Assembly (NCBI GenBank): GCA_030272155.1
Contig: CP126193.1
Coordinates: 5,642,001 to 5,706,000 of the forward strand
Source of the DNA: Tetradesmus obliquus
Lineage: Eukaryota; Chlorophyta; Chlorophyceae; Sphaeropleales; Scenedesmaceae
Direction of reading: 5' to 3'
Length of the DNA stretch: 64,000 nucleotides
Shown one piece after another: positions 431 to 61,843 of the stretch; the first letter of the stretch is position 1, and each line of letters begins with the position of its first letter. The position numbers and the translations under genes were made by a program. Under the pieces are notes generated by a model. The model ran no database searches, had not been told where the DNA came from, and saw only the letters and a list, made by a program, of their open reading frames with translations.

Positions 431-2267
431 CGTTGAAAGTTGTGTGTGCCACAGCCAGGACAGCTACAACCGCTGGACGCTGGCAGCGACATGAATACGG
501 CAGCGATGTGGCATCAACAGACGATTTTGGTTGGACTGTAGCTTCACGCTGGCAGCAAGGCAGCAAGGCCTGTAAGGCAGCTGCAGCAACTGCAGGCTGC
601 AGTGCAGCCGGAGGCCTACTCTTTGATTGAAGAGGAGCGCTTTTGTGCGAGATGGTCGTTCTCACGATCTAAGCCTTCAAAGAGCAGAAGTGTCTACAGC
701 CCCCGCCGCTCACCTGTTGAAGAGCCTGTAGGTGATGTGCAGCACCCACTTCAGCGCCTTGAACCACACCCACTTGCGCCGCTCATCAAGGCCTGCAGGC
801 AGCTGGTCCTGCACGGTGCGCGGCACGCATACATATGACAGCAGTTCAGCCAAACAGCCAACGCCCAGGCATTGTATACACCGCATGTCCATCATCTGGT
901 CGCTGCGCACAGTTGCTGGTTGCACTTGAGCACCAGTGCACGCGCCAGCGCGGCGGCAAACGCAAATCTATATCATGGATGAATGCGCAGTCAGTCTGCT
1001 GCCGCGTGATGCTGGCAAGACATGTTGTCCTGTGTGTCCTCAAGCAGGGCAGCTGCTTGGGCATGGCTATAGCAGGCATGTGCCAGCGCGGCGCCACAAG
1101 CAGCATAGATCATGCAGCGACAATGGATCTAATGCTGTGATATGCTAGTTAACTATTGCGTCCTCACCCATGGCAGCGGCTTGCGCATGGCCTGGTGTAG
1201 GCACTTGCCAGTTCAGCGCAAAAGGCTGAGCGTCATAATGCATGCATGCATGCGCAGCCAGTACTGGTATGACAAACTCATTAGCGTAGCATGTGTCCTC
1301 TCACCCATGGCAGCGGCTTGCGCATGGCCTGGTGCAGGCACATCATCCAGCCGCTGAACTGCTCCATGTTGAGCAGCAGCTCAGGCACAGCCATGAAGGT
1401 GGCGCTCCAGAAGATCTGCATAAGCCAGCGGCAGCAGCAGCGTCGTCACTCAGTGGTGATGCGGCAGCAGCAGCAGAGTAGATGCAGCAGCAAGCAGCTG
1501 CACCAACAGCTATAGCGACAGGCTGTTGAACGCAAGAGTGTATGCCAACTTGCAGATCTACCCTGCAAGACGCCAATCATCACAATCATTTCTGCTATCA
1601 ATGTTGATCACCTTGTCACTGTGATGCCGCACACCTTGCACACCAGCTTCATGAACTCGGCCACTTCAACACACTCACATATGTTACTGATCTCTATCAC
1701 ATGTTACAGAGTGCCAGTAGCATGTCACTGATTGTCGCCAACCATGCCGCGCACCTTGCACACCAGCTTCATGAACTCGGCCACCTGTGCCGTGGGGCTG
1801 GGGTTGGCCACCAGCTGCTGCAGCAGCCCCAGCAGCACAGGGAACGACGCGTTCACAATGGGAGCCATCGGCGCACGCTCCTCCTGCAAGCGGTAGAACA
1901 GACGCAAGAATTTGATTGAAACACAGTGTGCAGGCGTCAGTTCCGTGCCAGCAGCTGCGCTGGGGTGCTTGCCGCGCTGCTGCACATGTGTGCCGCATGC
2001 CTGCAGGTCCCGGCCAGGGCTCCATGTGCGCCAGCAGCAGCTGAGCGCTGCGCAATGCTAGGTGCCGCCTGCCTGCCTGCAGGCTGCTTGTATGGGCATG
2101 TGCAGTAAAGCCTGCAATATTGAGCAGCTCCCAAGCTGCTGCAGCGCTGTTGCCGAGCTGCTGCCACTGCCAGCACCTCGCTGAGCTGTCTGCCCGCCTG
2201 CCTGTTGCAAAACAGAGCGACAATCCAGCAACAAGTAGCCAACACAAGAGGTCCCAGTGGCCTGACA

Positions 2268-2299
<32 letters not shown>

Positions 2300-4642: not shown

Positions 4643-5246
4643 ATGCAAGAGCACGCTCAACTCCTGTTGCAAAAGCTGCTGCATGGTGTAGACACAGCCA
4701 AATATCAACGGCTGTGGGATCCAAGGCATATGAACCCGAAGGAGGCCACGCTGTCAATCGTGGCTGTAGGTGAGTGTCCCAGCTGCTGGTTACTGTAGCC
4801 AGTGGCCAACTGACTGTGTGGTTGGCCTCAGCTGCGAGCACTGGCTGCATCGTGCTCGCCGCGAACTACCCTGACTTACATTCTCATACTGTTCACGTGC
4901 TATGCTAGCCTTGGCGTGGCTTCTGCTGGAGGGCCTGATTCAGCTGACCCTCAGGGGCTGGGTATACAGCAAGCTGTACCCTGGCGGTGCTGCGCTGCAC
5001 AGCAAGGGCCAGCGGGAAGCAGCAAGGAACACCACCTCGGGCGTTGTGAAGCTCGTCAGTGTCGTGCACAACACGATTCAGGTGCCAAAATGAGCTAAAT
5101 GACGATGGATTGCAGCTGGTCAGTGTCGTGCACAGCGCACAGCGCAGTCCAGGTGCTGTTGATGGGTTCTATGGCGCTCATTGTACCGCTGACCAACGCG
5201 TGAGGCGGCACTGCACAGCACGGCATGGCTTGGCAGCAGCGGCGGC

Positions 5247-5283
<37 letters not shown>

Positions 5284-6607
5284 GGGCAGTGACAGGTTGG
5301 CAGCAGCAGCTTTGGAATACGAGTTTGCATGCTGGCAGGCCTCATGCTTGCCTTGGCATTGGCAGCACGGCAAGCTGGCATGCATACTAAGCAGCTGCAA
5401 CTGCAAGTCTTTTTGCAGCAGCAGTGTGCTTAGCGTTGTCAGCAGCATTACGTTGCGTGTGCTCAAGCAACAGCAAGCTTGTGATACTTTGGTTAGGCAA
5501 GTTGTCCGATGACAAGACGGCATGTGGTGTGCGCTGCAGATCCCCATCGCCTTCATGGTACTGCTAGACCCTGCAGTAAACCACGACACCATCTACGGCC
5601 ACACCCACCTGTCGACGCTGATGTGCCTCATCAGCAGCGGCTACTTCCTGTATGACATCTTCGTGGTCATTGCGAGGCGAGAGGGCGGCGGCATGCTGGT
5701 ACATGCAGCCTGCTGCCTGTTTGTGTACACATACGCGGTGTATTCCTTCTACCTTCACTTCTTCGGTGAGCAGGGCAGGACGCAGCAGCACTTGACGGTT
5801 TGTGACTAGTGAGATGGTGTGTAGCCGGGTGGTGGATGGGCTGCTAGCTAGCCCTTTGCAACTGCATTCCTGCATTGCGCGTCTGTCCGTAATTTGGGGC
5901 TGCTATCGTGCGGGATGCTAGCTGCTGTGGCAGCTCTGTCTTGCTTTGTCTTTCCTGCAAGCTGGCCAGCACTGCAAGCTGGCCAGCAGTCGGTGGCTGC
6001 TGTCACTACCCTCCACTTCAGCGCTGTGCCTGCCCTGCTGCTGCTGCTGCTGCTGCAGGTGCGGGCTTCCTGCTGTGGGAGCTGTCCACGCCCTTTGTGC
6101 ACTTCCGCTGGTTCTTACATCGCTCCGGGCAATCTAAGAGCCGGCTGTATGTGGTCAATGGCCTGGTCATGCTGCTGGTCTTCTTCCTGTGCAGGCCGCT
6201 GTGGGGCACCTGGCTCTCATACAGGGTGAGCCTGCTGCCGCTGCTGAGGTGCCAGAAGTATTGAAATGCCTGAACTGATTGGAACGGCCCCCTGTGAGCC
6301 TGCTGCCGCTGCAGTGCTAGAGTTTGCTGAGTGCAGAGCACTGTAGGGATGCAGCGGTAGCACACAGCAGCGAGGCCGTGGTTGCAGCAGGCTGGTGATG
6401 TGACCAGTTATGGCTTGGCTGCCGTGCAACCATGAGCCTGGTGACTTCCAAACCAGAGTTAGTGGGTGGTAAAGTCGGGTTCTTATTGCATACATCGCCC
6501 TGACAGCCTGGTGTCTGCTTTGCTAAGCTTGTTCCGCAACCTCATCGCCTGGGAGCGCCGAACCGCGCCCCTGTTCAGCCACCTGACGCTGATGCAATGC
6601 TGCTACC

Positions 6608-6651
<44 letters not shown>

Positions 6652-7125
6652 AGTTCTTTGCGGACACCGAGGTGGAGCTGCGCAACCCCAGGCCCAACGG
6701 CTTTCCTGCAAGTGGGATCTGGGGCTACCGGGTGGCCAACGTGGCTCTCAACCTGCTCAACTACTTCTGGTGCGCCAGCAGCAGTGCAGCACCAGGCGGT
6801 TGCCAGACACAACTGACATTGTGGAGCAGCTGCGCTCATCAGCTGAAGTGCTATTGCTGCATGCTGCCCCAGTCCACGTGTTGCAGCCTGTGCGCAGTAC
6901 ATTTACTCGTCTGTGCAGGCTGCTGCTGCCACCCAGAGCGATGCAGCATTTCTCTGTCTGTGTCTGTTATACCAAGCCATGCAGCAGCACGTCAATCAAG
7001 CTGTAATGTTCCTGCTGTTGCCACCGTGTGCTTTGCCCATGCGCAGGTTCAGCAAGATTGCAGCTGGCGCTGTCGAGCTGCTGTTCCCAAGCAAGAAGAA
7101 GGCAGCGCAGGGCAAGATCTGCTGA
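4643..7125 (+). CDS. TLC (TRAM/LAG1/CLN8) domain membrane protein, TLCD4/TMEM56-like
   Basis: A multi-pass membrane protein of about 310 residues; TLC-domain proteins act in membrane lipid handling, but the substrate of this subgroup is not settled. Exons are 4643-4769, 4909-5081, 5153-5197 or 5199, 5540-5765, 6059-6225, 6654-6769 and 7047-7125. Visible TLC features are membrane segments at LALAWLLLEGLIQL, VLLMGSMALIVPL and VNGLVMLLVFFLCRPLW, the block HDTIYGHTHLSTLMCLISSGYFLYDIF split here as HDTIYG and SSGYFLYDIF, a central HAACCLFVYTYAVY, and WELSTPFVHFRWFL, a close match to the TMEM56 ELSSPFVNQRWF motif. The C-terminus PSKKKAAQGK is basic, without a clear ER-retrieval motif at the very end. 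Phase closes only if exon 3 ends at 5197, which implies a GC donor (AAC|GCGTGAG). With a GT donor at 5200 the frame breaks. The neighbours are unrelated. Confidence 0.87.
5049..5152 (+). repeat. Duplicated exon 2 end bounding a 71-bp intron
   Basis: The end of exon 2 at 5049-5081 (LVSVVHNTIQ, ending CAG|GTGCC) is repeated at about 5113-5152, ending CCAG|GTGCTG directly before exon 3. The intron 5082-5152 therefore lies between the AG|GT of the first copy and the AG|GT of the second. Confidence 0.8.
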
Positions 7126-7940: not shown

Positions 7941-9519
7941 ATGGCCGGAGACAAGCAGGACTACGACTTGCTGATCGAGATGCGCACGGCCACACGGCGT
8001 AGCCACAACATAGCCAACGCTCTGATCTTAAGCAAGCTCGTGCTTGTGCTTACGGACAAGCGCCTGTACGCTCAAGCCCTCAGCAGCTTCCTGCCAGTGT
8101 ACAGTAAACTAGAGGCTCTGCTGCAGCAGCACAAGGATGTCCCGGGCTTGTCAACAGTGGTGGCAGTCACCTCGACCATCCCAGCCAGGACAGCAGCAAT
8201 GGAGCAGGTATGCAGGACAGCAGCAGCTGCTTCGCATGGTGTTCTGCAGGCACAGCGAGCAAGCAGGAGAGCAAAGTGCTGTGCTGCTGTGTTGCATCCG
8301 CACAGCTCCACCACGGCTGATGTGCGCTGTCATGAAACCACGATGCACGGAGTCTGTAGCGCGTCATCTCTGACAAAAGAAACACAGCTGCAGCCCGCTG
8401 CTTACTAGCACAGCACTCTGTACTTCGCCTTCAGTGCAGCAGCTAAATGCGCCCAACATGGACCCAGCAGCAATGCATCCACAACATTTTAACCACACTG
8501 CCCAGCATTATTACGGCATGCAAATACTGCGACAATCGTGGTGACTGCTCCATGCCCTCGCAGGCCGCACATACATACATATATTATTAGGGCATGCACC
8601 CTCCCATGCACACCATACATCACCCCATTCTCTGCTGTTACACATCCTTTGCAGGACTTAGCCTATCTGCTGGGCCCAAATTGGCGCTCCTACATACCCT
8701 CCTCCCAAGCAGCAGCAGCGTACGCAGCACACCTGGAGCAGCTGGCAGCAGCAAACCCCGTGCTGCTGCTGCCGTACGCCTTCAGCCTGTACGTGCCCAT
8801 CCTGCTGGGCTTCATGGCGAGACGCATCCAGAAAAGCTTGGCGCTGCCTGAGGGGCAGGGGCTGGAATTCTTCACAGTGAGCAGCAGCTTGACATAAATA
8901 AGAAAATAAAAAATATGCATGATTTGTGTGTAGGGATGAGCTGTGTGCGCTTTTAGCCAGCTTGGCGCTGCCTGAGGGGCAGGGGCTGGCGTTCTTCACA
9001 GTGAGCGGCAGCGTGAAGTGTGGCGTGAACTCTATGTGAACTTTGTTTGGGACTGTGTGTGGCTTACATGTTTGTTATGCATGCCGTCTGGTGCGTGCAC
9101 GCAGGCAATAGCTGCGTTGCAGGGCTGCTTGCTGTACAAGGCTTTTGCACTGCGACTGTGCACGCGGTGGCTGTCTGAAGTCTGCGGCTTTGTATCCTGC
9201 TGCTCTGCTGTGCGCGCAGATTCCAGACAAGGCAGGCAAGCTTGCGCAGCTGAGAGCAGCGGTCACCCATGCCGGTGGGGAGCTTCCCAGCCAGCAGCTG
9301 CGGCAGTCGCTGCTGGCGGAAGCAGTAGAGCAGTTTCGGCGGAACAACGCTGTCGTGGCAGAGTTTCGGGTGGGATGGCGCGCAGTGCTGCACGCTGCGC
9401 TGCTGGTGCTGCGCAGGAGCATGAGGTATGCTGTGGTGGCAGCGGCTGTGGTGGTAGGGCTGCTGTCGGTGGCGGCAGCTGCTGGTGTGTTGCCTGCTGG
9501 CTTGTTTGCGAGGCGGTAG
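7941..9519 (+). CDS. Heme-oxygenase-like protein with C-terminal membrane anchor
   Basis: A predicted 262-residue protein in three exons, 7941-8207, 8655-8876 and 9220-9519, with phase closing exactly. The fold resembles heme oxygenase, which opens heme to biliverdin, CO and iron. The N-terminus RTATRRSHNIANA places a His at residue 22 where the proximal heme ligand sits. LGPNWRSYIP and EGQGLEFFT match conserved heme oxygenase positions. The distal-helix GDLSGG motif is not seen; the equivalent stretch reads LYVPILLGFMARRI, so heme cleavage is uncertain. A hydrophobic segment near residues 232-257 (VVAAAVVVGLLSVAAAAGVL) followed by RR suggests a tail anchor, as in ER heme oxygenases. No plastid transit peptide is evident. 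It could be a catalytically altered homologue. The start is the first Met of the conserved frame. Confidence 0.75.
8959..9010 (+). repeat. Intronic copy of the heme-oxygenase-like exon 2 end plus donor
   Basis: The segment repeats 8835-8886 with few changes. That source is the end of exon 2 (LALPEGQGLEFFT) and the donor ACA|GTGAGC. The copy keeps the donor and lies 80 bases into the intron. Confidence 0.87.
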
Positions 9520-28334: not shown

Positions 28335-28394
<60 letters not shown>

Positions 28395-32113: not shown

Positions 32114-32650
32114 CAGGTCTTGCTCAACAGCCACCACAGGGAGTGCTTCCAGGCACAAGGGGCACAACAAAAACTCTGCAAACTCCATGTTAACATCGCT
32201 AAAAATCAGGCCCGTCTCCTGCTGCAAACTTGCTGTTCCCGTGTGCACTCGTCATCAATGCACGACATGCCAGGCACCCGGTGTTGCAGGAGCTTTGTGG
32301 CTACAAGCGAGACTGGTGCTACAGCACCAATTTGCCAAGAGCTAACTGCGGCAGTTACTAGGCGCACTCTTGTGAAGCAGCAGGCGTTGACAGCAGGGCG
32401 TGCTCTTTAGCGGAGCCAAGCCTTCACTACAAGTGGAGCAAGCCGATAAAAGGCTGCAGCATGTGCATACCTAGTTGTTTCAGCAGAAGCATCCGCTCTC
32501 CACAAGTCAGCACTGGCACAAGCAAGGCTGGAGGAACTTACAGTTGCACGAGAATGCCGGCGGTGTTGTTGGCGACTGTGTTGTACTGGACCACTGCGCG
32601 TATGGTGTTCTCCACCTCAATCCCAATGACGTTGCTGCATGGAGCACAGC

Positions 32651-32710
<60 letters not shown>

Positions 32711-34840: not shown

Positions 34841-35271
34841 TGTAGTAACGCACGGAGAATCAAGAGAGAAATACTGAAGGGGTTGATTGTGGAGAGTTCC
34901 TGAAAGGTTTGGAGGTAAACCAGCGGCTAAAACTGCAGGGCCAACAGGAGCGAGAGATCTGGCAGCCAGCAGACCGTACACAATCAGTCGCGACACAGCA
35001 GCGTCGACACACATCTCCCTGATTAGTACAATGTTGTATCTGCGCTGTTACACGCGTGTCACTTGTAACAAATCTAATCGTGTCTCACTCGTGACACAAC
35101 TGCTGTACTAGCACATCGCCTGGGTGAGTGGCGGATACACAGGGCCAGAAGCACCTCCGATATATATATAGAGAGTTCAGATCCCTTGAATAGATGCGCA
35201 GCGTCTCTGGAGCCGCAGTACAAACTGGCACTGCCGCACTTACCCACAGCGTCACCCAAGCTGCTGGCAAT

Positions 35272-41206: not shown

Positions 41207-44200
41207 CGAACGGGGCCCAAACCGCCGCACCACAGCAGCAGCAGCAGCAGCAAGCCCTCCTGCAGCCGGTTTGGGTGTCCCCAGCATCCGAGCTCACCTG
41301 TGCTGTCAACGCAGCAGTACCTCCGCTGTTTCTTGGACTTGACAGAGCTAGCGGTGCGCCTCACTTTGCGGTGCAAGTTGCAGCAGCAGAAGCGGAGGGG
41401 CTTGCAGGAAGCTTTGGTGCCCGCTGGATGTCAGCCAGGAATGCAGGACCAGAAATGAGCAGGAGTTATGCGGCGCTGATGGCAGTGGCATCCGGCTTAG
41501 CAGTGTGGAACCTGGATGCGCAGTATCACGGTGAGCGGGGTTTAGGTGTTTGTTGGAGTGGGGCTTAGGGAATTGTCGCAGTGGGGTGTAGGTTGCCGTG
41601 TAGCAACGGGGTTGCATGCTTGCTGTCGCCGCAAGGGTGCATCATTGGCTGCAGCTGCGGTGGTCTCTGTATGGTGCCCGCTGTTGTCGGCGAGGACTGC
41701 GGGGCCAGAGATGAGCAGGAGTGATGCGGCGCTGATGGCAGTGGCATCCGGCTCAGCAGTGTGGAACCTGGATGCACAGTATCACGGTGAGCGGGCTTTC
41801 AGGTGTTTGTCACATTGACGGTGGCAGGCTTGCTGTTGTCGCAAAGGCGCATGAGCCGCTGCAAGTGTAGTGAACTCATGCGAGCTCTTAAAATAAGTGT
41901 TTCTTCCACATGCTGCCTGCCTGCCAGGCACCACTGGCAGCCCCACCACGCCTCGCAGCAGCAAAACATTTGGCTTGCATGCTCTGTGCTTGCCGCATCC
42001 CTGCAACGTGGTGTCTGCTTGTCCCTCAAACTGCCCGCCTGCCAGGCACCGCTAGCATCCCCACCACACCTCGCAGCGGCTCCACCTTCACGCTTCATAG
42101 CATTCACAACTCGTTCAAATGAACACACAGCATCTGCCGCATGCTGCCTGCCTGTCAGGCACCACCGGCAGCCCCACCACGCCCCGCAACAGCGGCTTCT
42201 CTCGCAGCTGCAGCAGCAGCGGGCGCAGCCTGTACCCGCGCGTGGACCCGGCAATCATCACGCTTGTGACAGGAGGGGCCGAATGGTGCCTGCTGGGCCG
42301 CAAGCAGGAGTGGCCACGCGGCAGGTGCGTGCGTGACACTACAAGTAGTAGTTGGTCCATACAGCTGTGAACCTGTATAACGTCATCATGGTCGTGGCAA
42401 GTGTTGAGCACTCAGTGGGACGCGTGCAATGGTCGGTATCTGCGCAACTTTTCTGTTCAGCGCTATCTGTATTTTGTAATATACCGGCTGCTGGCAGGGA
42501 GGGTGTAACTGCAGCAGCTGGCACCTGCTGAGGCGCATGCTCGGCTGCTGCAACAGCATGCAACAGCGCCCTGCAACCAGTCCCTACACCAAAGCATTTG
42601 AATGCACACACGGGAAGAGTTGACATCTGCCGCAACAACGTGTGTGTCTCTGTGCCTGGCCTCAAACTGCCTTGCCATGCGCAGGTACTCCACGCTGGCG
42701 GGCGTCCTGGAGATTGGTGACAGCCTGGGGCAGGTTCATCTCTGAAAACATCACGACAGCAAGTTTCAAAAGCATCTGCCTTTGCGCTGCCTTGTGTCCT
42801 GCAGGCATGCCACGCTGGCGGGCTGTCTGGAGAGCGTTCAGCTGCAACAGCAACAGACGTCAGGGGCAGCCACTGCATCCCACTGCATCTGTCAACTGCT
42901 GCTGCATCATAAACTGCAGGTACTCCACGCTGGCGGGCTTCCTGGAGATTGGTGAGAGCCTGGAGCAGGCGCTGGCTCGTGAGGTGCTGGAGGAGTCAGG
43001 GGTGGACGTCCAACTGCCCAGCGTGCGGTGAGAAGCGCAGCAGCAGCATGCTGTGTTGTGTAGCTTGGTCGTGCTGCTTCACTCGTGCTGTGCATGTGGG
43101 AAAGTGAGTGTCTACTGCCCAGCGTGCGGTGAGCAGGCACAGTCTCTCAGCCGTGAGCCACTCAGTTCATTATCGGCAGCAGTACAAGAGTCCTGTTGTG
43201 GTGTGGTGCGTGAGGTGTTGGAGGAGTCGGGCGTGGAGGCGGTGCTGCCCAGCGTGCTGTGGGAAGCAGCAGCAGCAGCAGCAGTTGCAGCCTTGTTGCG
43301 GCAGTATAAGTCGAATCGGGGGTGGAGAGGTGCAGGGCATCACTGGAGGGGCCAGCGCCTCATCTTGCAGCAGCGATACACAAGGGCGTGCCACACAAGC
43401 ACCTCGTAGTGCTACTACAGCCGCCGCGCACGCTGCGACCGGCTCAACCTACCCACCTGCGCTCTGCTGTTGTTTTCAGGCACAGCCACACATATGTGTC
43501 GCAGGGATGCTGCCATCCAGGCACGTGTAGCGAAGCAGTACAGCATGCATGCTGGTGCAGCCGGCTCAACTCAATCTTCACACGCTTCTCTTCTCCTGCA
43601 TACTACCGGGCATGCACTGCAGGTACGCTGCCAGCTAGCGGCATATGGCACAGCAACACAGCATTCAAGCCAGGTGCAGCCCGTCGAACCCCGTGTTCAA
43701 AATGCTCTGCTGCTGCTTTGCGTATGTCCATGCTTGCATTGCAGGTATGTTGCCAGCCAGCCGTGGCCCTTTCCCAGGAGCCTCATGGTGGGCTTCTACG
43801 CAGCAGCAGCAGCGTTGGACGGCAGCAGCAGCAGCAGCAGCAGCAGCAGCGCTGGCCCTGTGGAGCTGCTGTCGCACCAGGGGCGCATGGCGATGATGGA
43901 CACGGGCATCAAGTGAGTGACCCGGCGTTCTGAAACCAGCGCTATGCTTGCTATGCTTGGGTGGCTTGGTTGGACAGCTGCCAGCATGTCGAGCATACGT
44001 GTTGAAGTGTTGAAGTGTTGAACCCATTGGCTGGGTGAGTTTGCCATATCGCTGATTTTTGCACCCACTGAGTTACACTGCTGCTGCTGCTGCTGCAGGC
44101 CTGCTGAGGTGTCTGCTGTGCTGGGCGACTGCCGCTTCCTGCAGCCCCCCGTGCCCCAGGAGGGAGAGATGGAGGACGTGCGCTGGTTCCACAGGTGCGG

Positions 44201-45121
44201 GGCGGGGGTGGGGGCCAAGATGGGTTCTGAGCAGCTGTATGTGCAGGAAGGCAGACTAGCACGCCGGCTTAGGCAGGCAGGAGGGCGAGATGGAGAATGT
44301 GCGCTGGTTCCACAGGTGCGGGCCGGGGGAAAGGCAGACTAGCAAGTAGGATCGCAGGCAGCTGTGTATGCAGGCAGTCGACCACGCACGCAGGCAGGCG
44401 GCCAGCTGTCGACAGTGAGATTGCATCTGCATGTAAGTGGCGGGCAAATGATGTATGTTGTTACTTATAATGATAGCTATGTCATCGTAAGGCAAGCTTT
44501 TGTGCAACCTATTCTCCAACTTTTGCATCTTCTTCATTGAGCTGCAGGGACTGGCTGTCGTGGGCGCTGCAGCAGGGCCCTGAGGCTGCCCCAGGTGGCT
44601 TCATGATACCGGGCGAATACAGCTTGGCCTACAGACTCATCACAGGCTGGCTGCAGCAGCAGAAGCAGAGTGTGCCACAAACTGTTCAGAACTCACATCA
44701 AGAGTCGGGGTCAAACAGCAGTAGTAGCAGCAGCAGCGCCAAGGGCATTTGGCTGGGCGACCAAGTGCCACAGGTGGAGGTAGATGAGGGTGTGTTTAAA
44801 TATGTGCTGCTGCGGCTAACAGACAGCAGCAGCGGCAGGAGCAAGCTGCTGGTCAGGGGGGCTGCTGCTGCAGCGTACCACAACCACATCTTGCAGCACA
44901 CCAAGGGGCAGCTGCAAAAGCTGTGTCCTCAAGGAACCCTGCAGCTTGATGTGCTAGGCGGCGGCAGGATTGAGCATCATGCGGATCAGAAAGTGATAAG
45001 TGTGTATGGGTACTCTGCAGCGTTTGGTCCAGCGGTGCATGAGGTGACGGCAGCACTGCTGCAGCGCTGGTACCCCTTTTATGATGCCAGCAGCATCACC
45101 TGGAGCTATGAAGGTTACTGA
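40804..45121 (+). CDS. NADH pyrophosphatase-type Nudix hydrolase fused to a Janus/PHPT1 phosphohistidine phosphatase domain
   Basis: A predicted 612-residue protein in six exons: 40804-41530, 42159-42324, 42920-43027, 43745-43912, 44099-44194 and 44548-45121; phase closes at every junction. The N-terminus is basic and Ala/Ser-rich (MLQRCSQPLSRLAAQQARRLL), compatible with organelle targeting. A polySer/polyGln stretch is near residues 118-145. The Nudix half resembles NUDT12 and plant NUDX19: LYPRVDPAIITLV, the Nudix box G304-V326 (GFLEIGESLEQALAREVLEE...), then SQPWPFPRSLMVGFYA, the SQPWPFPxS signature of NAD(H) diphosphatases. The zinc-ribbon Cys are mostly gone (HGTTGSPTTP...CSSSG). From about residue 496 the sequence is PHPT1-like: EGVFKYVLLRL, AAYHNHILQH with the expected catalytic His at 533, LGGGRIEHH, VYGYSAAFGPA and the terminal WSYEGY. 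The last exon is continuous across the Nudix tail (FMIPGEYSLAYRLI) and the phosphatase, so the fusion does not depend on an intron call. Confidence 0.92.
41151..41205 (+). repeat. In-frame AGC tract encoding polySer
   Basis: About 18 AGC units lie inside exon 1 of the Nudix-PHPT1 gene and are read as serine. A CAG run encoding Gln follows at 41235-41251. Confidence 0.95.
41440..42200 (+). repeat. Exon echoes in intron 1 of the Nudix-PHPT1 gene
   Basis: The exon 1 end with donor (about 41440-41545, ending QYH, GTGAGC) is repeated at about 41690-41800 with the donor intact. The exon 2 beginning with its acceptor (42145-42190, CCTGTCAG then GCACCACCGGCAGCCCC) has earlier copies at about 41915-41965 and 42033-42085. 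The last set is the one that keeps phase with exon 1. Confidence 0.87.
42678..43262 (+). repeat. Echoes of the Nudix-box exon
   Basis: The true exon is 42920-43027. Partial 5' copies with acceptors are at about 42679-42738 (YSTLAGVLEIGDSLGQ, then GTTCATC) and 42800-42840 (truncated after CTGG). Partial 3' copies are at about 43108-43136 (CTGCCCAGCGTGCG plus GTGAGC) and 43201-43262 (REVLEESGVEAVLPSV). Only the central one contains a whole Nudix box. Confidence 0.87.
44150..44330 (+). repeat. Echo of the exon 5 end in the Nudix-PHPT1 gene
   Basis: The end of exon 5 (EGEMEDVRWFHR, 44159-44194, with GTGCGGG donor) recurs at about 44279-44325 as GEMENVRWFHR-type sequence with one base offset and the same donor. 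Confidence 0.82.
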
Positions 45122-45849: not shown

Positions 45850-47103
45850 ATGACATACAGCAGCAACAGCAGCAGCAGCACGCTGCTGCCCATGCTGCTG
45901 CTGTTGCTTTTATGCACCAGCCTTTGCCATATTCAAGCTGATGGGCAGCAACTGCCACAGGCCCGGTGCCAGCTGCTGCTGCGGGGCAGGGGCCCAACTG
46001 CTGCTGCTGCACCACCAGGCAGCACCAGCAGCAATCTCATCGCTGCTGCCAGCCTCAAATGCAGCGGCGCGTTGGTTACTGTCGGCATCAACAGCACGCT
46101 GCTGGGGCCTTTTATGGCATCATCCTTCCATGGAGTGAAGGTCGCTGCTGACTTAAATTGCCAGCAACGAGCTAGTGGAGGTAGCCTGCGAGGCATGCCT
46201 GTGTCTGGGCTGCTGTACCTTTGTGACAGCGCAGTAGAGGTGCTGCTAGATGCACCTGTTGTGGAAGATGTGTGGCTAGGAGTAGGCAGCCAGCAGCAAG
46301 CTACTGCCTTGCTTGTTGTTGCAGGGCAGGCACGTGTGAGGGTGTCTGGTGGCAGGATAGAAAACAACAAGGCTAGCTCAGCTGTTGTGGTGGGCGATCA
46401 GGCTGTAGTGAGTCTGCAGAACGGCACGAGTGTGAGCGGCAATCGCTGTCTTGATGGTATAGGTGTGTATGCTGCACAGAATGCATCCGTATCAATCATA
46501 GAAAGCATGATAGACAACAACACGGCTGTGGGGACTGATGGCATGCTGTCTTTACAGACCTCTGGGGGTGGTCTGCTACTCTCAGGGTCTGCGAAAGTGC
46601 TGCTGCAAGACAGCAGCTTGTCAGGCAACACCAATGGCTTTGCTGGCGGCTGGTATGCAAAGCAGTACTCCAGCATTGTCATCCGCAACAGCCTGGTGTC
46701 AAACAACACGGCTGCTCAGGTGAGAGGGTTGTCAGGGTGACAGCTGGGTGTGGCTGGCCTAACGTGATCTGTATGTGAACAGCGGGAAGCAGTACTACTG
46801 CTCATAGTATGAGGCAGCACTGCCGGCAGTGTGCGTTGTGAGCCGAATGGTCACATGATGTCACGATGAACATTATGCTGCTGCACAGAATGCATACAGG
46901 GAACAGCCAGAGTTGCCTACGGCATCAGCAGCAGCAACAGCAACATGCGATGTGCATTGCCTGCACATGTGCATTGCTGTTCCGGCTTCTATGACGCCTA
47001 GCACTCATGCACGGTCAAAGTCTTGGGGTACAGCTTGCTGTGGAGGGGCACTGCTGCGACAATGCACTGCACTGCACCCTTATATATGCTGCTGCTGCTT
47101 ATA

Positions 47104-47155
<52 letters not shown>

Positions 47156-50100
47156 TCGCTGCTGCCTGTTGCTGCTTGTAGCGAGGTGGCGGCTGCTTCA
47201 TGGAGGGCTCAGCCACAGCACGCATCAGCGGCAGCCGCATCATGCAGGCAAGCCTTTTTCTGTATGGTTCTGTAGAGAGACACCCGTTTTGTTTGCCACA
47301 AGCGGCGACAGCAACAGCGATGTGCAGCTCTTTGACAGATCACCACCGGTGCCTGGTGACTCCAGGAGTGGCTGTGCAGCATTGCGTGGAAACAACAGTC
47401 ACTGGTAGCAGCCTAAGAGCATGCACAGACGTGTGCGGGCAGCTGCACACAGTACATTGGCAAGCCGCACATCATGCGGCTGACCTTGAACCGGCCTGTC
47501 ACAGCAAAACCCTGCTGGTGCACGCATTGCCTGCAGCACCCTCCACTTCATCTGCCTCCTGTTCATACAGCTGCCTGTCAAACCTCCAACCTGCTGCGCA
47601 TGCGTCTTCCCTGCATTAACTTGTCCCCTCCAACTGCAGAACAAAGCAGCCAGGGGCTACGGCGGTGGCGTGTATCTGTCAGAGTCAAACGCCATGAGCA
47701 TCAGCAACAGCACCCTGCAGGGCAACTTTGCCTCGTTCTCCGGAGCCGCCGCATTTGTGCGGCACTCTGCCAACCTGGGCATCAGTGCCAGCACCCTTAC
47801 TGACAACCTTGCCAACATATACGGTTCAGGTGATCTGAAGGCGACCAGCGCAAGATGAATGAGACACACAGCCATGCCCCTGCAGATGCAAAGTACAGGC
47901 AGAGCTGGAGGCTGCAAGCCCAAGTGTATTCAGCCTAGGTCAGCTTGAAACAAATGTTTGCGCCTCTGCTGCATCTTCTCAGCACAAAACAAACCCTGCA
48001 CACTGCAGATATTTGGCTCAGACACACTCTTGACAATCTCCTGCAGGCATTTACTGTCAGGAGAACAGCACTGTCGAGACGGCTGCGGGCACGCTGCTGC
48101 GCGGCAACCGGGCACTCAACAGCGGGGCTGGGCTCACCGCCTCAGGCAGTGCAAAGGTGAGCAGCTGGATGTGTGGCAACTGGAGCTCTAGCAGTCAGGC
48201 TGCGCTGCATAGAACAGGTTAGCTTTGCTGTTGTGATGAATCAGGCAGGCCCACATAGAGATTGGCAGGGCTGCCGGCAGCTTTATGAGTATGACAGACA
48301 TAGCATGCTGTCATTACAGGCATGCAGCATCAAGCGTGTTTCTTTGCTGTCGCTCGTGCTGCAGGTGATTGCGGTTGACACCATCTGGCAGCACAACACA
48401 GCCACCAGCGGAGGAGGCTTGTTCATGTACGAGTTCTCACGGCTGTCCATGCACAACAACACACTGCAGCAGAACAAAGGTGTGAGTGCTTCCTGCTACA
48501 CTGCGCAGTAGTGGCTGCTTGCCAGTGCGATGCCTGCAGCGTTTAGCCTGCCAAGGCAGGGTAAGCATGTATGCACGTGCACGCATCACTGCTACTGCTG
48601 CGTCCTGCCTCGCCTTCAATCTGGTGAGTTATCATATGGTGGCTTCACATCCCAAGCAGCTTAATGGAGCAGCATGGTTGGCCTCTTGCTGCAGAGCCGC
48701 AGCTGTATGCCTCGCATGCCATACATCACAAACAATGATGGCAGAAATGCTGCTGTGAGCAGCTGCTGCTCTTGCAAATGCACTGGGCCGGCCACCATGT
48801 CACAATTTGTTGTGTTCACCTGCACCTATCCTTCCATCCTGCAGCCGCCGAGTCTGGCGGGGCCATCAGCAGCCAGCAGCTGTCACGCATCACTGTCAGC
48901 GCCAGCACCTTCAGCACCAACCATGCAATGGATGGCGCTGCCATCGGCCTCAAGGACAACAGCAGTGCTGTGCTGGAGGCCGGAGTGCGGCTGCTGGGCA
49001 ACGTTGCTGAGAAGTCTGGAGGGGGCTTGGCTGCTGAAGGCAGCACACAGGTGGGGCTGCAGCAAACTGTAGAGACCTGGGGTGGCTGGCAGGGTGGTGT
49101 GGCCAAACATGTTGCAGCAAACTGCTCTGTGCGGCGTGGCTTTCCGGCTGCAGCACACACAAACAGAGCTGCTTCAGCATTCTCACAAGCCACATCTCTA
49201 CAGATGCCCAGCAGCATAGTGTGCACGCACGTGTACTCACATTTGCTTTGTTGCGAGGAGCAGCAGCAACTTGCCCCATGCGGCCACATGAGAGAAAGGA
49301 CTGACTTTGACTTTGGGATGTTCTGCTGCAACCTGTCTTCACTCCTGCCGCAGGTCACCCTTCATAGTGCCTTCATCTCCAACAACACCGCAAGCCTGGG
49401 TGGCGGCATCAGCCTCAAGCAAGCTGCAGCAGCCACCCTCTTTGCCACAACCATTGAAGCCAACCAGGCGCTGCGCTCTGGGGGAGGCATCCATGCAGCG
49501 CTGCAGGCCAGTTTGATTATTAGTAATGGCAGCAGCATCCGGGGAAACACCGCCAGGGGTACTGGCGGTGGTGTGGCTTGTGCGGATGCATGCAAGCTTC
49601 GGGTGCCTGTTGTGTTGCCAGCTGGGCATGAAATGGTGCATACAGAGGTGTCAGCATCCATTGTGAACAACAGCGCAAAGGGAGGGTGGGGTGGCGGGGT
49701 GCTTGCTGAGAGTGCCGACATAGTCGCTGCCGAGCTTGCTGCGGCGTCGCACGGCAACAACGCATCGTACGGAGCGGACTTGCATGCTGGCATTGCACGC
49801 GTCGAGCTTTTGACGCCGCATACAATCACTGGCTTTGCTAGCCGCTTGGGTGTGGAAGAAGGAGTGCTGCACGTAGCGCTGCGTGTGTTTGGCCACCAGA
49901 ATATCCCCAGCGAGGGAGCTCTGGTGCAAGCTGTACTCGGCAGCAGCCAGTTCCTCGCTGCTAACCGCACAGACAAAGCTGGCAATGTATCCCTGAGCTT
50001 GAAAGTGGTCAGGGCACCAGGACAGTATGTCCTCTCTTTTGTGCTCCCAGAGGCAGTGAATGTGCCTGCGGCAAACGTGAGCCTTTCCATTCGGCCTTGC

Positions 50101-52208
50101 GTGCGTGGCGAGGTGTCGCCTAGCCCGGACAGTTGCCTGGCGTGCCCCAGTGGCTACTTCAGTTTGGATCCTGCCGATGCAGTGTGCAGCGTTTGTGTGG
50201 CTGGCGGGGTGTGTCCTGGTGGCTCTCTGCTGCTGCCGCAGGCTGGCTACTGGATGTCTACGGCAGACTCAAACCAGCTCCACAGGTGAGCCGCTGTGAG
50301 GCAACTCATGCGGATAGCTGCTGTGTGTACACTGTGGCGATGCTTGCAGACGTCTGGTGGTTATTTTGTTGTGCACCTGGGGGAGGGCAGCTGTGCGATT
50401 AACTCAACATGCAACACCATATTAGCATTGCATGCAAGCACCTCATCTGCAAGCGCTAACCAAGGGCTGCTGCACACCTGCTGTCTTGCTTGCTGCTGCT
50501 GCGGCGGATGCGACCGCCCTGCTGCAATGCCTACAGGTGCCCCCACCCCTCGGCCTGCAGCTCAGACAACACAGCGCTGGCAGCATGCGAAGCCGACCAG
50601 CACTGCAGGCAGCAGGACACCTTCAGGCAGCTGCAGTGTGCCCCAGGCTACACTGGAAACCTGTGCGGCGTATGTGCTGCGGGCTATGCAGCTGTGAAGC
50701 CATTCACATGCAGCAAATGCATGGCAAAGAACACTCTGGTTCCCTTGTATGCCACTGCTGTTGTGGTGCTGCTGCTATTTATGAAGCTGCTGGTTGCGTC
50801 TACTTTAGCGGCTAACAGAGCGATGAGGTCAGTTTCTGGAGCACCTTCGAATTCAAATTCAAACTGCAGCTGTGAGCCTGGCATGCTGCTGCGGCCGTTA
50901 CTTTTGTTCACACAGTACATCCTGATCATTGCCAGCCTCAACATCGATTTCCCAAGCACAGTGACGGCGCCACTGAAAGCAGTAGCATGGTTCTGGGCGC
51001 CTGCATCTCCCCAAGCCTTATCCATTGACTGTTTGCTGGAAGGCTCGGCAGCAGCAGGCGCACTGCCTGTCGCTATGCAGCGGGTGCTGGTGTATATCTG
51101 CATGCCGCTAGCCATGCTGCTTGCGCTGCTGGTGCTGGAGGCAGCTCTGCTGAAGCTTGCACACAAGGCGAGTGTGCGGGCAGGCATGGCTGACAGACTG
51201 TTCAGCAGTGCCTTTGTAGCTGCGTTCTTTTTCCTGCCATCGATTGCACGCAGCCTGTTTAGCCTGTTTGCTTGCGTGCCGATTGACGAGCCAGCCAGCC
51301 CACCGTTTGCTGCAGCAGTGGTGGGCTCCTTTTGGGCATTGGATCTGAATATGCAATGCTGGGTGGGACACCATAGGGTGTTTGCGCTTGGTGTGGGAGT
51401 GCCGCTGCTGCTGCTCATTTGCGTGGGTTTTCCCGCCTGCATCTTGTACAAGACGCTGTCATACCGGCGCGATTTGGCAAACCCCCACGTCATTCAGCAC
51501 TATGGTTTCCTGTTTCGTGCTTATAGGAGCCGCTTCTGCTGGTGGGAGTGTGTGGTGGTTCTGCAGACCGAGGCGCTTGTTGCAGTCAGTGTCTTTGGGC
51601 ACTCCATTGGTCCAATCTATCAGGCGCTGTTTGCGAATGCCATGCTTGCACTCATGACAATCATCCTGATGATGGCACGCCCGCATGCGCATGCAGCTGC
51701 ATACCGTGTGATGCTGCATGCTATGTGCTGCCTTGTGCTCACAAGCTACATCTCCATCTCCTTTATACCATCTGGCAGCTACAAAGCTGGGCCAATCTAT
51801 GGCATCATCATGGGGTGTGTCCTGGTACTGCTGAATGCATCATATGTTGTATCAGTGCTCTGGCAAATGCACAAGCTGATGAAGTGGGAGGCTGTTGCGG
51901 GCGCATGCCGCGCTTTCGCATACGGTGTGGGTGGGTGGTGTGCCGGCAGGCTGCCGTGGTGTGCTGACAAGCTCTGCTGCTGCATTGTGCCACCAGAGCT
52001 GCCGACCAGGCGGTTTGGCAATGCAGGGTTCAGTTTCAGGCACCCGGCAGAGCAGGCATACGCTGCTGCAGCCAATGCAGCCAGTACAGCCAATGTAAGG
52101 GATGCAGGCAACGACCCAGCAGCAGCCAATGCAGCTAAGGCAGGCAAGACAGGCAAGAATCCAGCAGCAGTCAAGGACCCTGCAGCAGTTCCTGCAGAGG
52201 GTGTCTGA
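45850..52208 (+). CDS. Large surface protein: beta-helix ectodomain, Cys-rich stalk and multi-pass membrane domain
   Basis: A predicted 1,364-residue protein in seven exons: 45850-46719, 47640-47829, 48047-48156, 48365-48479, 48845-49050, 49354-50285 and 50537-52208; phase closes throughout. It starts with a signal peptide (LLPMLLLLLLCTSLCHIQA). Residues of roughly 130-720 carry repeats of the polymorphic-membrane-protein/right-handed beta-helix kind: VSGGRIENNKAS, DSSLSGNT, SLVSNNTA, GGGLFMYEFSRLSMHNNTL, GGAISSQQLSRITVSASTFS and GGGIHAALQASLIISNGSSIRGN. A Cys-rich region follows (CLACPSGYFSLDPADAVCSVC, CAPGYTGNLCGVCAAGY). The last half has about seven to nine hydrophobic helices, with YGFLFRAYRSRFCWWECVVV between two of them, a motif I associate with many algal and protist membrane proteins of this layout. 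The C-tail is Ala/Lys-rich and cytoplasmic by inference. Ligand and signalling role are unknown. Confidence 0.88.
47103..47155 (+). repeat. (CTG)~17 triplet tract in intron 1 of the surface-protein gene
   Basis: Pure CTG in the sense of the gene, preceded by two TATATGCTGCTGCTG copies. It is about 490 bases from the acceptor of exon 2. Confidence 0.93.
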
Positions 52209-58033: not shown

Positions 58034-61000
58034 GCCAAGAAGCAGAAGCAGAAGGCAGCTGGGCTGCAGCTGCAGGGGCTAGCGGGTGAGGGTGTGGGCT
58101 CAGATGAGGAGGAGGCAGCGCTGGATGAGCTGCTGCAGAGCAGTGCAGCGCTGGTGGGCAAGCAGCCGCCGCAGCGGGGCAAGCAGCAGCAGCAGCAGCA
58201 GCAGTGGGGTGGCGGCAGCTCAGATGATGAGGATGATGAGGATGAGGAAGGGGTGGGTGTTGACCCTGGCCAGGTCTTTTACAAGGACTTCTTTGGGGAG
58301 GAGCCGGGGCTTGCAGGACAGCAGCAGAAAAAGGCGGGAAAGCCCGGCAAGAAGCAGCAGCAGAAGAAAGGTGGGAGAGCAGCAGCAGCAGCTGGTGGTG
58401 GTGATGACAGTGAGCAGGAGGATCACTTGGAGGATGAGATGGGCGGTATGATGGGCAGCAGCGAGGAAGGGGAGGAGATGGATCAAGATGATGGCAACAG
58501 CGGCAGCGATGGTGACGGGGATATGCTAGCAGCAGATGCTGATGATGAAGATGATGACGCTGCCTGGCTATCTTCTGAGGAAGGCGAGGAGGGGGCAGCT
58601 GGCGCTGCTGCTGCTGGCAAGCAGCGGCGCGTGCGGTTTGCTGGTGCAGATGATGATGCGGAAGAAGCGCGGCAGGGGCTGCAGGCGTGGCAGCAGGCGG
58701 CAGGCGGCTTTGACAGCTATGAAGATGATGAGGAGCAGCAGCAGCCGCTATCAACACACGAGAAGCGGCTGGCGCGCATGCAGGTGGGTGGTGGTGCTGC
58801 TGCTGCTGCTGCTGATGTTGGCACATGGTTGCAGTTGGTGGCAGTTGGTGTGCACGGTCTTTGGCAGCACGCAAGCGATGGCGCTATGACACCGCGTTGG
58901 CAGCGCGGCAGTAGCGTCCTGATGGCATGCTGACGTGCACCCAGGCCACTTCATTTGTTACACCTGTTTCTGCCCTATGCCACTCATGCCTGGCACTCCT
59001 GCATCCCTCTTCTTCTTTTTCCCCCTGCAGGAGCGCATTGCTGAGCTGGAGGAGTCAGCCATGGGTGAGAAGCCGTGGCACCTGGTGGGCGAGGTCCTGC
59101 CTCACACGTTCCCGCCCTTTCCCTCCCTGGTCACCCTGTCACCTCACTATTGTCCCTGCAGGAGCGCATTGCTGAGCTGGAAGAGTCAGCCATGGGTGAC
59201 AAGCCCTGGTGGGAGAGTTACAACACATTACTCCTGCCTTATCTTATTCTTTCTTCCCTTGCCGCCTCACCCTTTTCCCTGCAGGAGCGCATCGCTGAGC
59301 TGGAGGAGTCTGCAACAGCAGTGAGCGATTTGCTGTTTCACACTTTTTCCCGCCCTTTCTCACCCTGGTCTCCCTGCCGTATCACTCTTTTGCCCTGCAG
59401 GAGCGCATTGCTGAGCTGGAGGGGTCAGTCGTGGGTGAGAAGCCGTGGCACCTGGTGGGCGAGGTCCTGCCTCACACTCCCTCCTGCCTCTCTCACTTTT
59501 CTTCTTTTGCCGCCTCACTCTTTATTCCTGCAGGAGCGCATTGCTGAGCTGGAGGAGTCCGCAATGGGTGAGAAGCCGTGGCACCTGGTGGGCGAGGTGC
59601 AGGGCGCAGCGCGGCCCCTCAACAGCGCGCTGGAGATAGACATGGATTACGACACCACCAACAAGCCGCCGCCGGCCCCCACTGAGGAGGCAACTCACAG
59701 CCTGGAAGACATGATCAAGAAACGCATCGCCGACAACAGGTGCACAGTGTGATGAATTGTTATTCATTGTATAGTGCTGTGTGTGGTGCACCGCCGTTGC
59801 TTTGCACCCCGGCTGTGGATTATCAGGTGATAGTGGGATACACCCTGCTGTGTTGGTGGAGGTGACCCAGATGCACCTACAGCAATGTACTGGGGCCACT
59901 TGGCACCAGAACACAGCTGCACAACCCTGTTGCTTCCATGCAGCAGATCCCCAGAGCATTGCATTTAGCATGTTTGCTGCTGTTGCACCTGCAGGTGGGA
60001 CGACGTGGTGCGTGTGCTGCCTCCCCCCACTGAGGTGAAGAAGCGGCAGGTGGTGGAGCTGGACGACAGCAAGGCGCAGCAGGTGAGGCATGGGCACAGG
60101 AACATAGCAATGACTACTTCAGTTCATTGCACGTGCACACACGTGGTCGACATCAAGGCACAGCAGGTGCGATCACTGTGCATATACGCGTACTTTCACC
60201 TGGTGCTGCCTATAATACTGCCTTTCTGTACCATTCCTCTTGTGCCATCCGCCTGAGGCCTGGGTTAGCTCTACACGGCTGTGATTACTCACTGTACTTG
60301 CGCGTGGTCACACCAACACTGATTATAACATGCTGGTTCAATTGGTGCCGACTCGACTTCTTGCTGCACTCTGCAGGGCCTGGGTGAGATCTACGAGGAG
60401 CAGTATGTGTCGCAGGCCACGGGCTTCACCGCGCCAGACAAGCAGGAGCCGCTGCGGCGCCAGGCTGCCGCGCTGTTCAAGGAGCTGTGCGGCAAGCTGG
60501 ACGCGCTGTCAAGCTTTGTCTTTGCGCCCAAGCCCGTGGTGGAGGAGCTGGAGGTGAGGGCTTGAGGGTATTGGGGTTGTGTGCTTTGTTTTGTCCAGGA
60601 TGTCGTGCATGTCAAGCTTGCAGGAACAGGCATGCCTGTGCTCCCAAGCATGGTGGTGGAGGAGCTGGAGGTGAGGGTTTGGGTTTTTGGGCTTGGGTGT
60701 TGGGCTGTTTGGGTTTGTGTACTTGTGAACACCGCGTGCAGGAATAACTTGCAGCCCTGGAAGCTGTTGGCAGTCACCATACACGCTGCGTGTGCACACC
60801 TTCCATCATCCAATAAACATCCGCAGTCGTCATTCTCAAACAATTGTGGTCAAACCTCAATCAACCCCTGGTCAAACCGCGCTCACGCCCCGGTCTCCGC
60901 TACTGCTGCTGCTGCAGGTGCGCTCTGATGTGGCAGCGCTGGCATTGGAGGAGGTTGCCCCGCTGGCTGTGAGCGATGCCACGCTGCGCACACCCGGGGA

Positions 61001-61843
61001 GGTCTACAAGCCTGAGGCCAAGGGAGAGGCCAAGGCAGAGGAGGAGCTCACACAGTGAGTGCAGCTGGGGCTGGGGCAATAACATATCACAACTAGCCAC
61101 AGCAGTAGTGCTAGAGGGTGCCTTCTAGGTGCTGTGCTGTGTTCATGCCCGAGGCCAAGGGCGAGGCAAAGGCAGAGGAGGAGCTCACACAGTGAGTGCA
61201 GCACCGGGGTGTAATGCAGGGCGCACTGCATTGGGTGCTGGGGAGTTTCCTGCATGTATTACTGCAAGGTGTACCACAGGGTGTCCATAGCTTGAGTAGT
61301 AGGGTGTTGACTGGCGATGTATGCTGTGTGCTGTTTTGAGGGTGGATGAGGCAACAGCGCCCACGGCAGAAGAGCAGCTTCTGGCAGGCAGTGTATACAC
61401 TACACTGTCGTTCACCGCACGCAAGCTCCGCTGCTCGCACCCACCACTGCACGCTGCTGCTGCTGCACCTTTGCAGGGAGGAGCGCAAGCGCCGTCGCGC
61501 CAAGAAGAAGCGCACTCACAAGCTCAAAGAGGCCGAAAAGGAGGCCACTGCTGCTGCGCGCGCTGCCGCTGCTGGCGACGCGACCGCGCTGGCTGGCCGC
61601 AAGTCTCTGGCCAAGCAGATGGCAGCAGCGACCAGCAGCGGGCTTGTCAAGAAGGGTGTGGTGGCTGGTGGTGCTGGCTCTGGCGGCAAGAGTGAGTTTG
61701 GCAAGAGTGCTGCTGTGTTCGGCAAGATAGCGGAGGCTGCTGCTGCTGGCGCTGCTGGTGGCAAGGGTGGGAAGGGAGGCAAAGGAGGCAAGGGTGGTGC
61801 CAAGGAGGGGCAGCAGCTGCGCGGCGCAATGCTGAAGCTGTGA
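55853..61843 (+). CDS. MPP10: U3 small nucleolar ribonucleoprotein protein MPP10
   Basis: MPP10 joins the small-subunit processome in the nucleolus, bound to IMP3 and IMP4, for early 18S rRNA cleavage. Nine exons, 983 residues, phase closing: 55853-55870, 55976-56431, 56860-57407, 57829-58783, 59534-59739, 59995-60082, 60377-60553, 60918-61054 and 61477-61843. Exon 1 codes only MAKRKT. The middle is very acidic (runs of Asp/Glu near exons 3-4) with polyGln insertions. Family marks are FFHLDDMEAFVAQAE, VFYKDFFGE, HEKRLARMQERIAELEE, MGEKPWHLVGEVQGAARPLNS, LEIDMDY then EDMIKKRI, WDDVVRV, IYEEQYV, KLDALSSFVFAPKP and the basic RKRRRAKKKRTHK near the C-terminus, with a Gly/Lys (GGKGGKGG) tail. The protein is longer than animal MPP10 (about 680 residues) mostly because of low-complexity inserts. 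Four echoes of exon 5 precede the chosen exon; only the last continues in frame. Confidence 0.94.
59026..59472 (+). repeat. Four tandem echoes of MPP10 exon 5
   Basis: Copies begin at 59031, 59161, 59286 and 59401, each directly after CCCTGCAG or a close variant, and each starting GAGCGCAT(T/C)GCTGAGCTGG. They code for ERIAELEES-like starts. The copies at 59031 and 59401 extend through EKPWHLVGE to GAGGTCCTG. The 59161 copy ends soon after the ATGGGTGA equivalent, and the 59286 copy diverges at GCAACAGCAGTGAGC. The true exon starts at 59534 and continues with GTGCAGGGCGCAGC. The spacers between copies are pyrimidine-rich and similar to each other, so the duplicated unit includes the acceptor tract. 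Confidence 0.95.
60100..61210 (+). repeat. Echoes of MPP10 exon 6, 7 and 8 ends in their introns
   Basis: The exon 6 end (AAGGCGCAGCAG, GTGAGG, 60071-60088) recurs at about 60153-60172 as AAGGCACAGCAG then GTGCG. The exon 7 end (GTGGTGGAGGAGCTGGAG, GTGAGGG, 60536-60560) recurs at 60651-60680. The exon 8 end (GCAGAGGAGGAGCTCACACA, GTGAGTGCAG, 61035-61062) recurs with upstream flank at about 61150-61202. In each case the donor is copied with the exon end. Confidence 0.87.

Follow-up and report, generated by a model that had tools for sequence, protein, structure and literature searches.

Introner elements of algae and fungi form dispersed families, and minisatellites and other short tandem duplications arising from staggered-nick or flap repair occur in plants and yeast; for the latter we know of no preference for splice junctions and of no conservation limited to a core. 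In the potato RdRp gene (PMC4974935), a tandem duplication across an intron-exon boundary made a new intron, which RNA reads confirm. In the AGGT model (Hellsten 2011, as described in PMC4974935), repeats bound a new intron that is cut from exon sequence. Here we analyse a stretch of 64,000 nucleotides from the green alga Tetradesmus obliquus (contig C3, positions 5,642,001-5,706,000; hereafter the window), together with further samples of the same genome, in which many introns contain between one and six eroded copies of the adjacent exon edge.

As in the potato gene, the exon edge is duplicated nearby, together with its splice site and in direct orientation; there too the duplicate was local and in tandem, took in the 3' end of an intron together with the adjoining 5' edge of the exon that follows, and left a small exonic segment intronic (PMC4974935). 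The potato case is, as presented there (PMC4974935), one event in one gene that gave a new intron, whereas here 45 of 506 predicted junctions are affected, donors as well as acceptors, the copies stand on a ladder of about 125 bp, they are often alike in the core only, and they give no sign of new introns. With the AGGT model, as that source describes it (PMC4974935), the copies share short local direct repeats with splice-site sequence, but here these repeats lie inside an existing intron beside one junction. They resemble introners in being intronic, algal, junction-related and short, and differ from them in that a spacer (the sequence between copies) searched genome-wide was unique; with minisatellites and flap-repair duplications they share local direct duplication, variable copy number and the shuffling of units. 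When we searched the open-licence literature, no report of exon-edge ladders in introns came up. The lengthening of introns and the origin of spare splice sites have mostly been inferred from rare single events, whereas here there are many examples: naive scaling of 45 affected junctions among 506, in 0.3% of the genome, gives on the order of ten thousand, of different ages and in one genome, and both the ladder step (about 125 bp) and the way copies end at the splice site provide quantitative, testable clues.

The window was analysed along with 200 kb of contig C1 and 50 kb of contig C8 (sample positions in both counted from 2,000,001), amounting to 314 kb or 0.3% of a genome of 104.7 Mb in 17 contigs. 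Exons and introns were modelled with a joint-strand hidden Markov model (HMM) gene finder trained on the sampled sequences, and all junctions are predictions. The models comprise 40 genes and 408 introns, with donors of the form MAG/GTGAGY and acceptors of the form CTGCAG/G (the slash marks the splice site), and each of the four gene products tested, in full or in part, carries good Pfam domains. Because the gene finder calls some copies exons, the tests were repeated with exons of at least 70, 100 and 150 bp; that a simple HMM called many copies exons is also a warning for gene predictors. Simple repeats were masked before the repeat scans, whose thresholds favour copies of at least 30 bases. 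Predicted intron lengths look bimodal over the 314 kb, falling roughly at 40-140 and 180-460 bases, and some of the short class probably arises artefactually, from copies that were called exons.

The copies are not due to chance and are real both in the window and in the other 250 kb, a result that speaks for a recurrent, local process of copying where exons and introns meet. A predicted junction lies inside 46 of the 62 repeat pairs with an offset of 85-160 bases, compared with 19.0 ± 3.4 for pairs placed at random anywhere and 24.8 ± 3.8 (maximum 36 in 500 trials) for pairs re-placed within genes. For exons of at least 70, 100 and 150 bp the counts are 35, 34 and 22 of the 62, against genic nulls of 20.7 ± 3.7, 17.8 ± 3.4 and 12.5 ± 3.0, with maxima of 32, 29 and 21. 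Pairs in one array are non-independent, and several junctions share an array and see common copies; counted by array, 35 of the 42 arrays whose smallest offset is 85-160 touch a predicted junction and seven do not. The pairs at this offset affect 16 of 251 donors and 17 of 255 acceptors, in 16 of 42 predicted genes. The 16 pairs that contain no predicted junction were excluded from the splice-site, alignment and flank analyses reported below.

A comparison within the same exons leads to the same preference. Exon edges were found in an intron in 15 of 372 cases, against 2 of 372 for the same exons 60-140 bp inside and none of 169 at 150-230 bp inside, and no exon edge was found in 2,208 comparisons with unrelated introns. 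The preliminary description of the window, made by a model from its letters, had claimed that duplicates favour splice junctions over random placement and had asked for a self-alignment against a shuffled control. Run on 314 kb with re-placed pairs, such a comparison bears out the enrichment, with the qualification that 14 of 474 intron windows have a second copy within the same intron, so that duplication is not confined to edges. The copies also have a direction. In 33 of 34 cases among the pairs at offset 85-160 the partner is found on the intron side, and over all 506 junctions 45 have intron-side copies versus five with exon-side hits, these five all being predicted junctions inside arrays, with hits that stand on nearly the same rungs.

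A feature that the preliminary description had missed is the ladder, with a step of about 125 bases, on which the copies stand. We scanned a 51-base junction core over 800 intron-side bases at the 506 predicted junctions with an exon of at least 100 bp, without preselecting offsets and with a threshold exceeding every score in 2,929 null scans of unrelated introns. The 45 junctions with intron-side copies carry 78 copies in total, of which 37 lie at offsets 94-142, one at 182, 21 at 210-262, one at 321 and seven at 342-396; the remainder lie at 422, 454, 499-510 (four), 624-637 (three), 750 and 777. The space between the first rungs is nearly empty, with one copy at 143-209, and most farther copies fall near multiples of the step. 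The same picture emerges from 36 junctions preselected for a pair at offset 85-160, a choice that makes this set blind to other first rungs, and 16 of these have at least two copies. The unit is steadier than its parts: in 47 pairs chosen with offsets of 85-160 the offset is 121.6 with a standard deviation of 11.9, the standard deviations of core length and spacer are 15.8 and 16.7, and core length correlates with spacer at -0.73. A quantisation of intron lengths by 125 bp was considered and rejected, the periodogram only just reaching the 95% null level.

The ladder recurs across the sample. Over the 314 kb there are 160 pairs that stand 50-1,199 bases apart, and those at most 800 apart group into 62 arrays; a predicted junction is touched by 41 of these. 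In the 200 kb of C1 there are 70 local repeat sites with a peak at offset 120-129, and the 50 kb of C8 hold two junction arrays; successive spacings in the C8 array are 140, 127, 129, 129, 127 and 125. Control offsets of 5,000-5,968 gave no hits in C1 and eight in the window, where two paralogous stretches stand 5.2-5.5 kb apart. C8 also contains, at 2,029,466-2,031,189 (29,466-31,189 of the sample), two intergenic tandem arrays of a 144-bp unit without a predicted splice site.

One array, at 100,274-101,023 of the C1 sample, consists of six full units that precede the true exon (101,024), with spacings of 126, 125, 125, 125, 124 and 125; the units are of three types and follow one another as A B C B C A. 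When units of different types are compared, 28 of 588 positions (4.8%) differ in the 49-base exon core and 232 of 916 (25%) in the rest of the unit; for units of the same type the figures are 5 of 147 (3.4%) in the core and 19 of 229 (8.3%) in the rest, all of these being non-independent pairwise counts. Under even decay core and rest ought to agree, and in this one array the contrast reads as renewal of the core. Two type B units share an in-frame stop in the core, so the core is not being kept intact as coding sequence. Like units run head to tail throughout this array and, judging from pair listings, throughout the 2.5-kb array of C8, although not in most recent edge pairs. Elsewhere spacers match those of non-neighbouring units, for example, in the array at C1 22,892, the stretch 22,958-23,015 with 23,179-23,230, and 59,079-59,153 in the MPP10 gene of the window with 59,321-59,389 and 59,449-59,522, a pattern that shuffled arrays would be expected to show.

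The reading that we favour, to which we give slightly less than an even chance, is that the copies are junction-anchored mini-arrays, made of tandem units of about 125 bp in which the live exon keeps renewing the exon-edge core and the remainder drifts. Such an array would begin with the tandem duplication, towards the intron, of a stretch of about 125 bp that spans the splice junction. The outermost splice site (the first donor or the last acceptor) would, we infer, stay in use, leaving mRNA and protein unchanged and the extra edge silent in a longer intron. The array would then grow and be shuffled by whole units. The core of each copy, typically 40-65 bp of exon and a few intron bases, would be renewed time and again from the live exon, through conversion or through template switching (the latter also raised in the preliminary description), and the intron portion would meanwhile drift beyond recognition. 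Since a junction-crossing duplication is silent if the outermost site is used, this would explain both the direction and the survival of such events. Conversion as the homogenising step is likewise inferred, and the suggestion that nucleosome spacing possibly sets the 125 bp is a guess.

Several observations weigh against anchored arrays of this kind. The most direct comes from recent pairs, taken as those with an exon part of at least 25 bases and up to 5% difference (n=10, with 14 mismatches in 460 bases or 3%; nine pairs with an exon part below 25 bp are excluded): the next 50 intron bases are alike in one of the ten at p<0.01 and in two at p<0.05, and the power of this flank test in simulation is 100% at 10% divergence and 99% at 20%. 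Two of the ten pairs rest on doubtful predicted junctions (C1 33,298 and 100,946). In recent pairs whole-unit duplication is thus invisible and has to be assumed to be older than the core. The contrast between core and rest across unit types comes from a single array, and within recent unit pairs of that array the core is only mildly better kept (3.4% vs 8.3%). A tract of 40-60 bp is short for conversion, and the size of 125 bp is without a demonstrated cause. At C1:2,062,911-2,063,283, in a donor array of three copies, inspection by eye suggests that copies 1 and 2 are nearly identical in their intron part and differ only synonymously in their exon part, and neither decay nor simple conversion seems to explain this pattern. 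Two further points concern coding: third positions hold 48 of 78 changes, compared with a rough estimate of 46% for a neutral copy, and NUDIX-like, the second domain of the Nudix gene of the window, which lies elsewhere in that gene, is unaffected by the copies (28.4 vs 28.8 bits).

The simplest alternative, plain tandem duplication anywhere combined with a visibility bias, is in our view unlikely. The conserved exon original would keep junction-crossing duplicates visible, while intron-only duplicates would decay twice as fast and exon-only ones would be purged. This accounts for the direction, for the exon bias of old copies and for the rarity of exon-side copies. Intron-to-intron duplicates do exist, as the 14 recurring windows of 474 show, and so do full tandem units; of 46 junction pairs, 13 show likeness of the intron flanks at p<0.01, among them six of the nine with an exon part below 25 bp. 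Whole-unit duplicates are therefore present too, and the remainder reflects either copying of the edge only or renewal of the edge after the intron had decayed. If duplication were plain, however, the ten recent pairs would be expected to have introns that can still be aligned, and one of them does; nor would core and rest differ by 4.8% and 25% within the same units, or only 7 of 42 arrays be without a junction. Visibility bias alone thus fails for the recent edge-only pairs and for the contrast between core and rest, and this favours anchored arrays. The same two results led us to reject the idea that the copies are mere decay products.

Copying that is directed at the junction itself, and that transfers the edge up to the splice site only to a place about 125 bp away, we also consider improbable. 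Such copying would be linked to RNA or to chromatin, for instance through repair from pre-mRNA or through template switching between nucleosome linkers, and we know of no machinery for it. It would fit the extent of the copies: in a set of 36 aligned junction pairs, from which 10 pairs below 88% identity were additionally excluded, the intron part of the alike stretch is at most 16 bases in 26 pairs, with an exon part of 6-121 and a median of about 42, and homology continues in one of the ten recent pairs. A short intron part is expected in old copies in any case, because the introns on both sides have drifted. Directed copying would also fit the rarity of exon interiors in introns (2 of 372 and none of 169) and the mostly unique spacers. 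On the other hand, full-unit arrays have homologous intron parts, 13 of the 46 pairs have alike flanks, and two of the ten recent pairs depend on doubtful junctions. A form of this idea that we hold possible though doubtful is an active process that copies nothing but edges, ending at the splice site, and sets them down in the neighbouring intron at multiples of about 125 bp; junctions would thereby seed and re-seed their own ladders. The exact stop at the splice site implies that such a process would read exon-intron identity through RNA or through chromatin (nucleosome-bounded exons), and, if true, it would lengthen introns and supply spare splice sites.

The origin of the spacers bears on several of these readings. 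When 27 spacers were compared with the 314 kb, 21 had no match outside themselves and their own array, five gave additional short, weak matches at other places, and the last was repeat-like and matched widely. One spacer searched genome-wide had no second match, and two arrays searched genome-wide, with only the best candidates scored, had only local matches to themselves. These searches show neither a mobile family nor a paralogue as supplier, and both a transposon or introner origin of the spacers and an ectopic paralogue as donor of the copies were rejected on these grounds.

The preliminary description had also raised the possibility that the copies are kept for a purpose, as decoy or alternative splice sites. 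We regard functional sites under selection as quite unlikely. Of 46 copies, 42 retain the GT (or GC) or AG dinucleotide (donors 19 of 20, acceptors 23 of 26), site scores are a little lower in the copies than at the true sites (means of 4.6 vs 6.0 for donors and 4.4 vs 6.7 for acceptors), and for 13 of 20 donors and 7 of 26 acceptors the copy equals or exceeds the true site in strength; the better-kept core of one array is also what selection would give. However, simple arithmetic predicts some 39 intact dinucleotides of 46 at about 8% divergence, so that retention is about what identity predicts, and replacement changes accumulate in the copies, which are spread over 16 of 42 predicted genes. 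In one pair from each of 21 arrays, with the copy outside predicted exons and at any offset up to 800, we counted 38 synonymous and 32 replacement codon changes and no stop. The synonymous fraction is 0.54 (bootstrap 0.41-0.67), compared with a prediction of 0.39-0.43 for a neutral copy and of 0.78-0.80 for two coding copies; all 104 pairs together give 197 synonymous changes, 222 replacements and six stops. As the fraction is below the coding expectation, the copies are not maintained as protein, though the value is on the high side of neutral. The shared in-frame stop speaks against function as well.

Protein domains agree with this. NUDIX scores 45.7 bits without the copies and 38.3 with them, and Symplekin_C 96.8 bits in one piece without and 90.0 in two pieces with them, the affected domain thus scoring better without copies in both genes compared. 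Translated alternative or tandem exons were rejected on the strength of the synonymous fraction and of these scores. An early impression of coding constraint, gained from the share of changes at third positions, was weakened by the synonymous and replacement counts per array.

Exchange between haplotypes is very unlikely. Copies derived from a diverged second haplotype should differ from the exon mostly synonymously, and their introns should no longer align; the slight synonymous excess would fit, and a 2024 paper on Scenedesmus obliquus UTEX 3031 reportedly speaks of haplotype divergence in its title. Several copies are, however, 97-100% identical to the exon including third positions while their introns are unalignable, and no 125-bp ladder would be expected. 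Intron gain, whether by AGGT duplication (Rogers/Hellsten), which the preliminary description had proposed, or by mobile elements of the introner type, we find barely plausible: junctions and duplications do co-occur and some junctions read AG/GT, but most spacers belong to no repeated family, and the copies straddle one junction of an existing intron, on its intron side (45 vs 5), rather than both of its ends. An assembly artefact can practically be dismissed: most copies are identical neither to the exon nor to one another, they are found on three contigs, and their spacing is fixed.

Within the window, 19 sites have at least 24 of 30 matching bases at offsets 90-144, compared with a mean of 0 in four control offset ranges. 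Seventeen of them read as exon edges, while a site near 19,036 and a 44-bp minisatellite near 26,906 are not clear edges. In an ungapped, masked self-comparison of the window local direct repeats lie mainly at offsets 113-137 and multiples of these, with none at control offsets 2,000-2,669, and pairs were also recovered by self-BLAST. Once those at longer offsets (41,685-41,799 and 43,209-43,267) are added, the intronic copies of the window number 19, including weak ones near 1,033, 43,106 and 43,606, in agreement with the more than 15 first reported; their reported size of 25-110 bases also holds, the exon part measuring 26-120 bp with a median of 43 in the 37 junction pairs that have at least 25 bp of it. 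The copies are listed below.

Table. Exon edges of the window and their intronic copies (window positions).
Gene	Exon edge	Copy	Likeness	Offset	Span	Strand
Importin-like	donor 1,304	1,163-1,204; weaker copy near 1,033-1,067	41/42 bases (first copy)	137; 262	1033..1341	-
Importin-like	donor 1,754 (exon 1,755-1,883)	1,624-1,664	40/41 bases	120	1624..1784	-
Heme oxygenase	exon end 8,835-8,876 and 16 intron bases	8,959-9,016	93%; flanks unlike	124	8835..9016	+
Nudix	exon end before donor 41,530	41,685-41,799	91%	256	41429..41799	+
Nudix	acceptor 42,158	upstream, 41,902-41,962 and 42,031-42,080		231; 113	41902..42193	+
Nudix	acceptor 42,919 (Nudix-box exon)	upstream, 42,681-42,734 and 42,799-42,833		235; 115	42681..42969	+
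Nudix	donor 43,027	weak copy near 43,106-43,133; 43,209-43,267	81% (second copy)	101; 231	42978..43280	+
Nudix	acceptor 43,744	upstream, weak copy near 43,606-43,639		122	43606..43762	+
Nudix	donor 44,194	44,278-44,329	92%	121	44157..44329	+
MPP10	acceptor 59,533	four upstream, starting 59,031, 59,162, 59,285 and 59,401		spacings 131, 123, 116, 133	59015..59598	+
MPP10	donor 60,553	60,653-60,681	28/29 bases	117	60536..60681	+
MPP10	donor 61,054	61,139-61,202	91-93%	137	61002..61202	+

Echoes had been reported for six genes of the window, and those of four are upheld: the importin-like gene (Pfam Xpo1 at 21.0 bits, under its cut-off of 22.7), the heme oxygenase gene (37.2 bits), the Nudix gene and the MPP10 gene (278.7 bits). 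The other two fared less well. The predicted gene at 4,902-7,125, presumed to be the TLC gene, has two borderline hits with scores of 20 and 14, the null maximum being 20, and in the ephrin-like gene (28.2 bits) the junction scan found no copy scoring at least 13.

Other features of the window are of a different kind. An Rfam search of the window gave no matches. The stretches 25,886-29,676 and 31,082-35,000 are 59-64% alike over several kb and are probably tandem gene paralogues. At 26,913-27,139, inside a predicted intron, there is a minisatellite with a 44-bp unit in about five copies that are 97% alike, and at 32,898-33,096 an array of about 16 copies of the 12/25-bp unit GGACAGGTGTGC. Long open frames extend over 45,961-52,208, one of them weakly matching the Chlamydia polymorphic membrane protein repeat, and possibly encode a secreted repeat protein. 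Across the whole sample, CAG/GCA trinucleotide runs are very abundant, and those in exons often read polyglutamine, polyalanine or polyserine.

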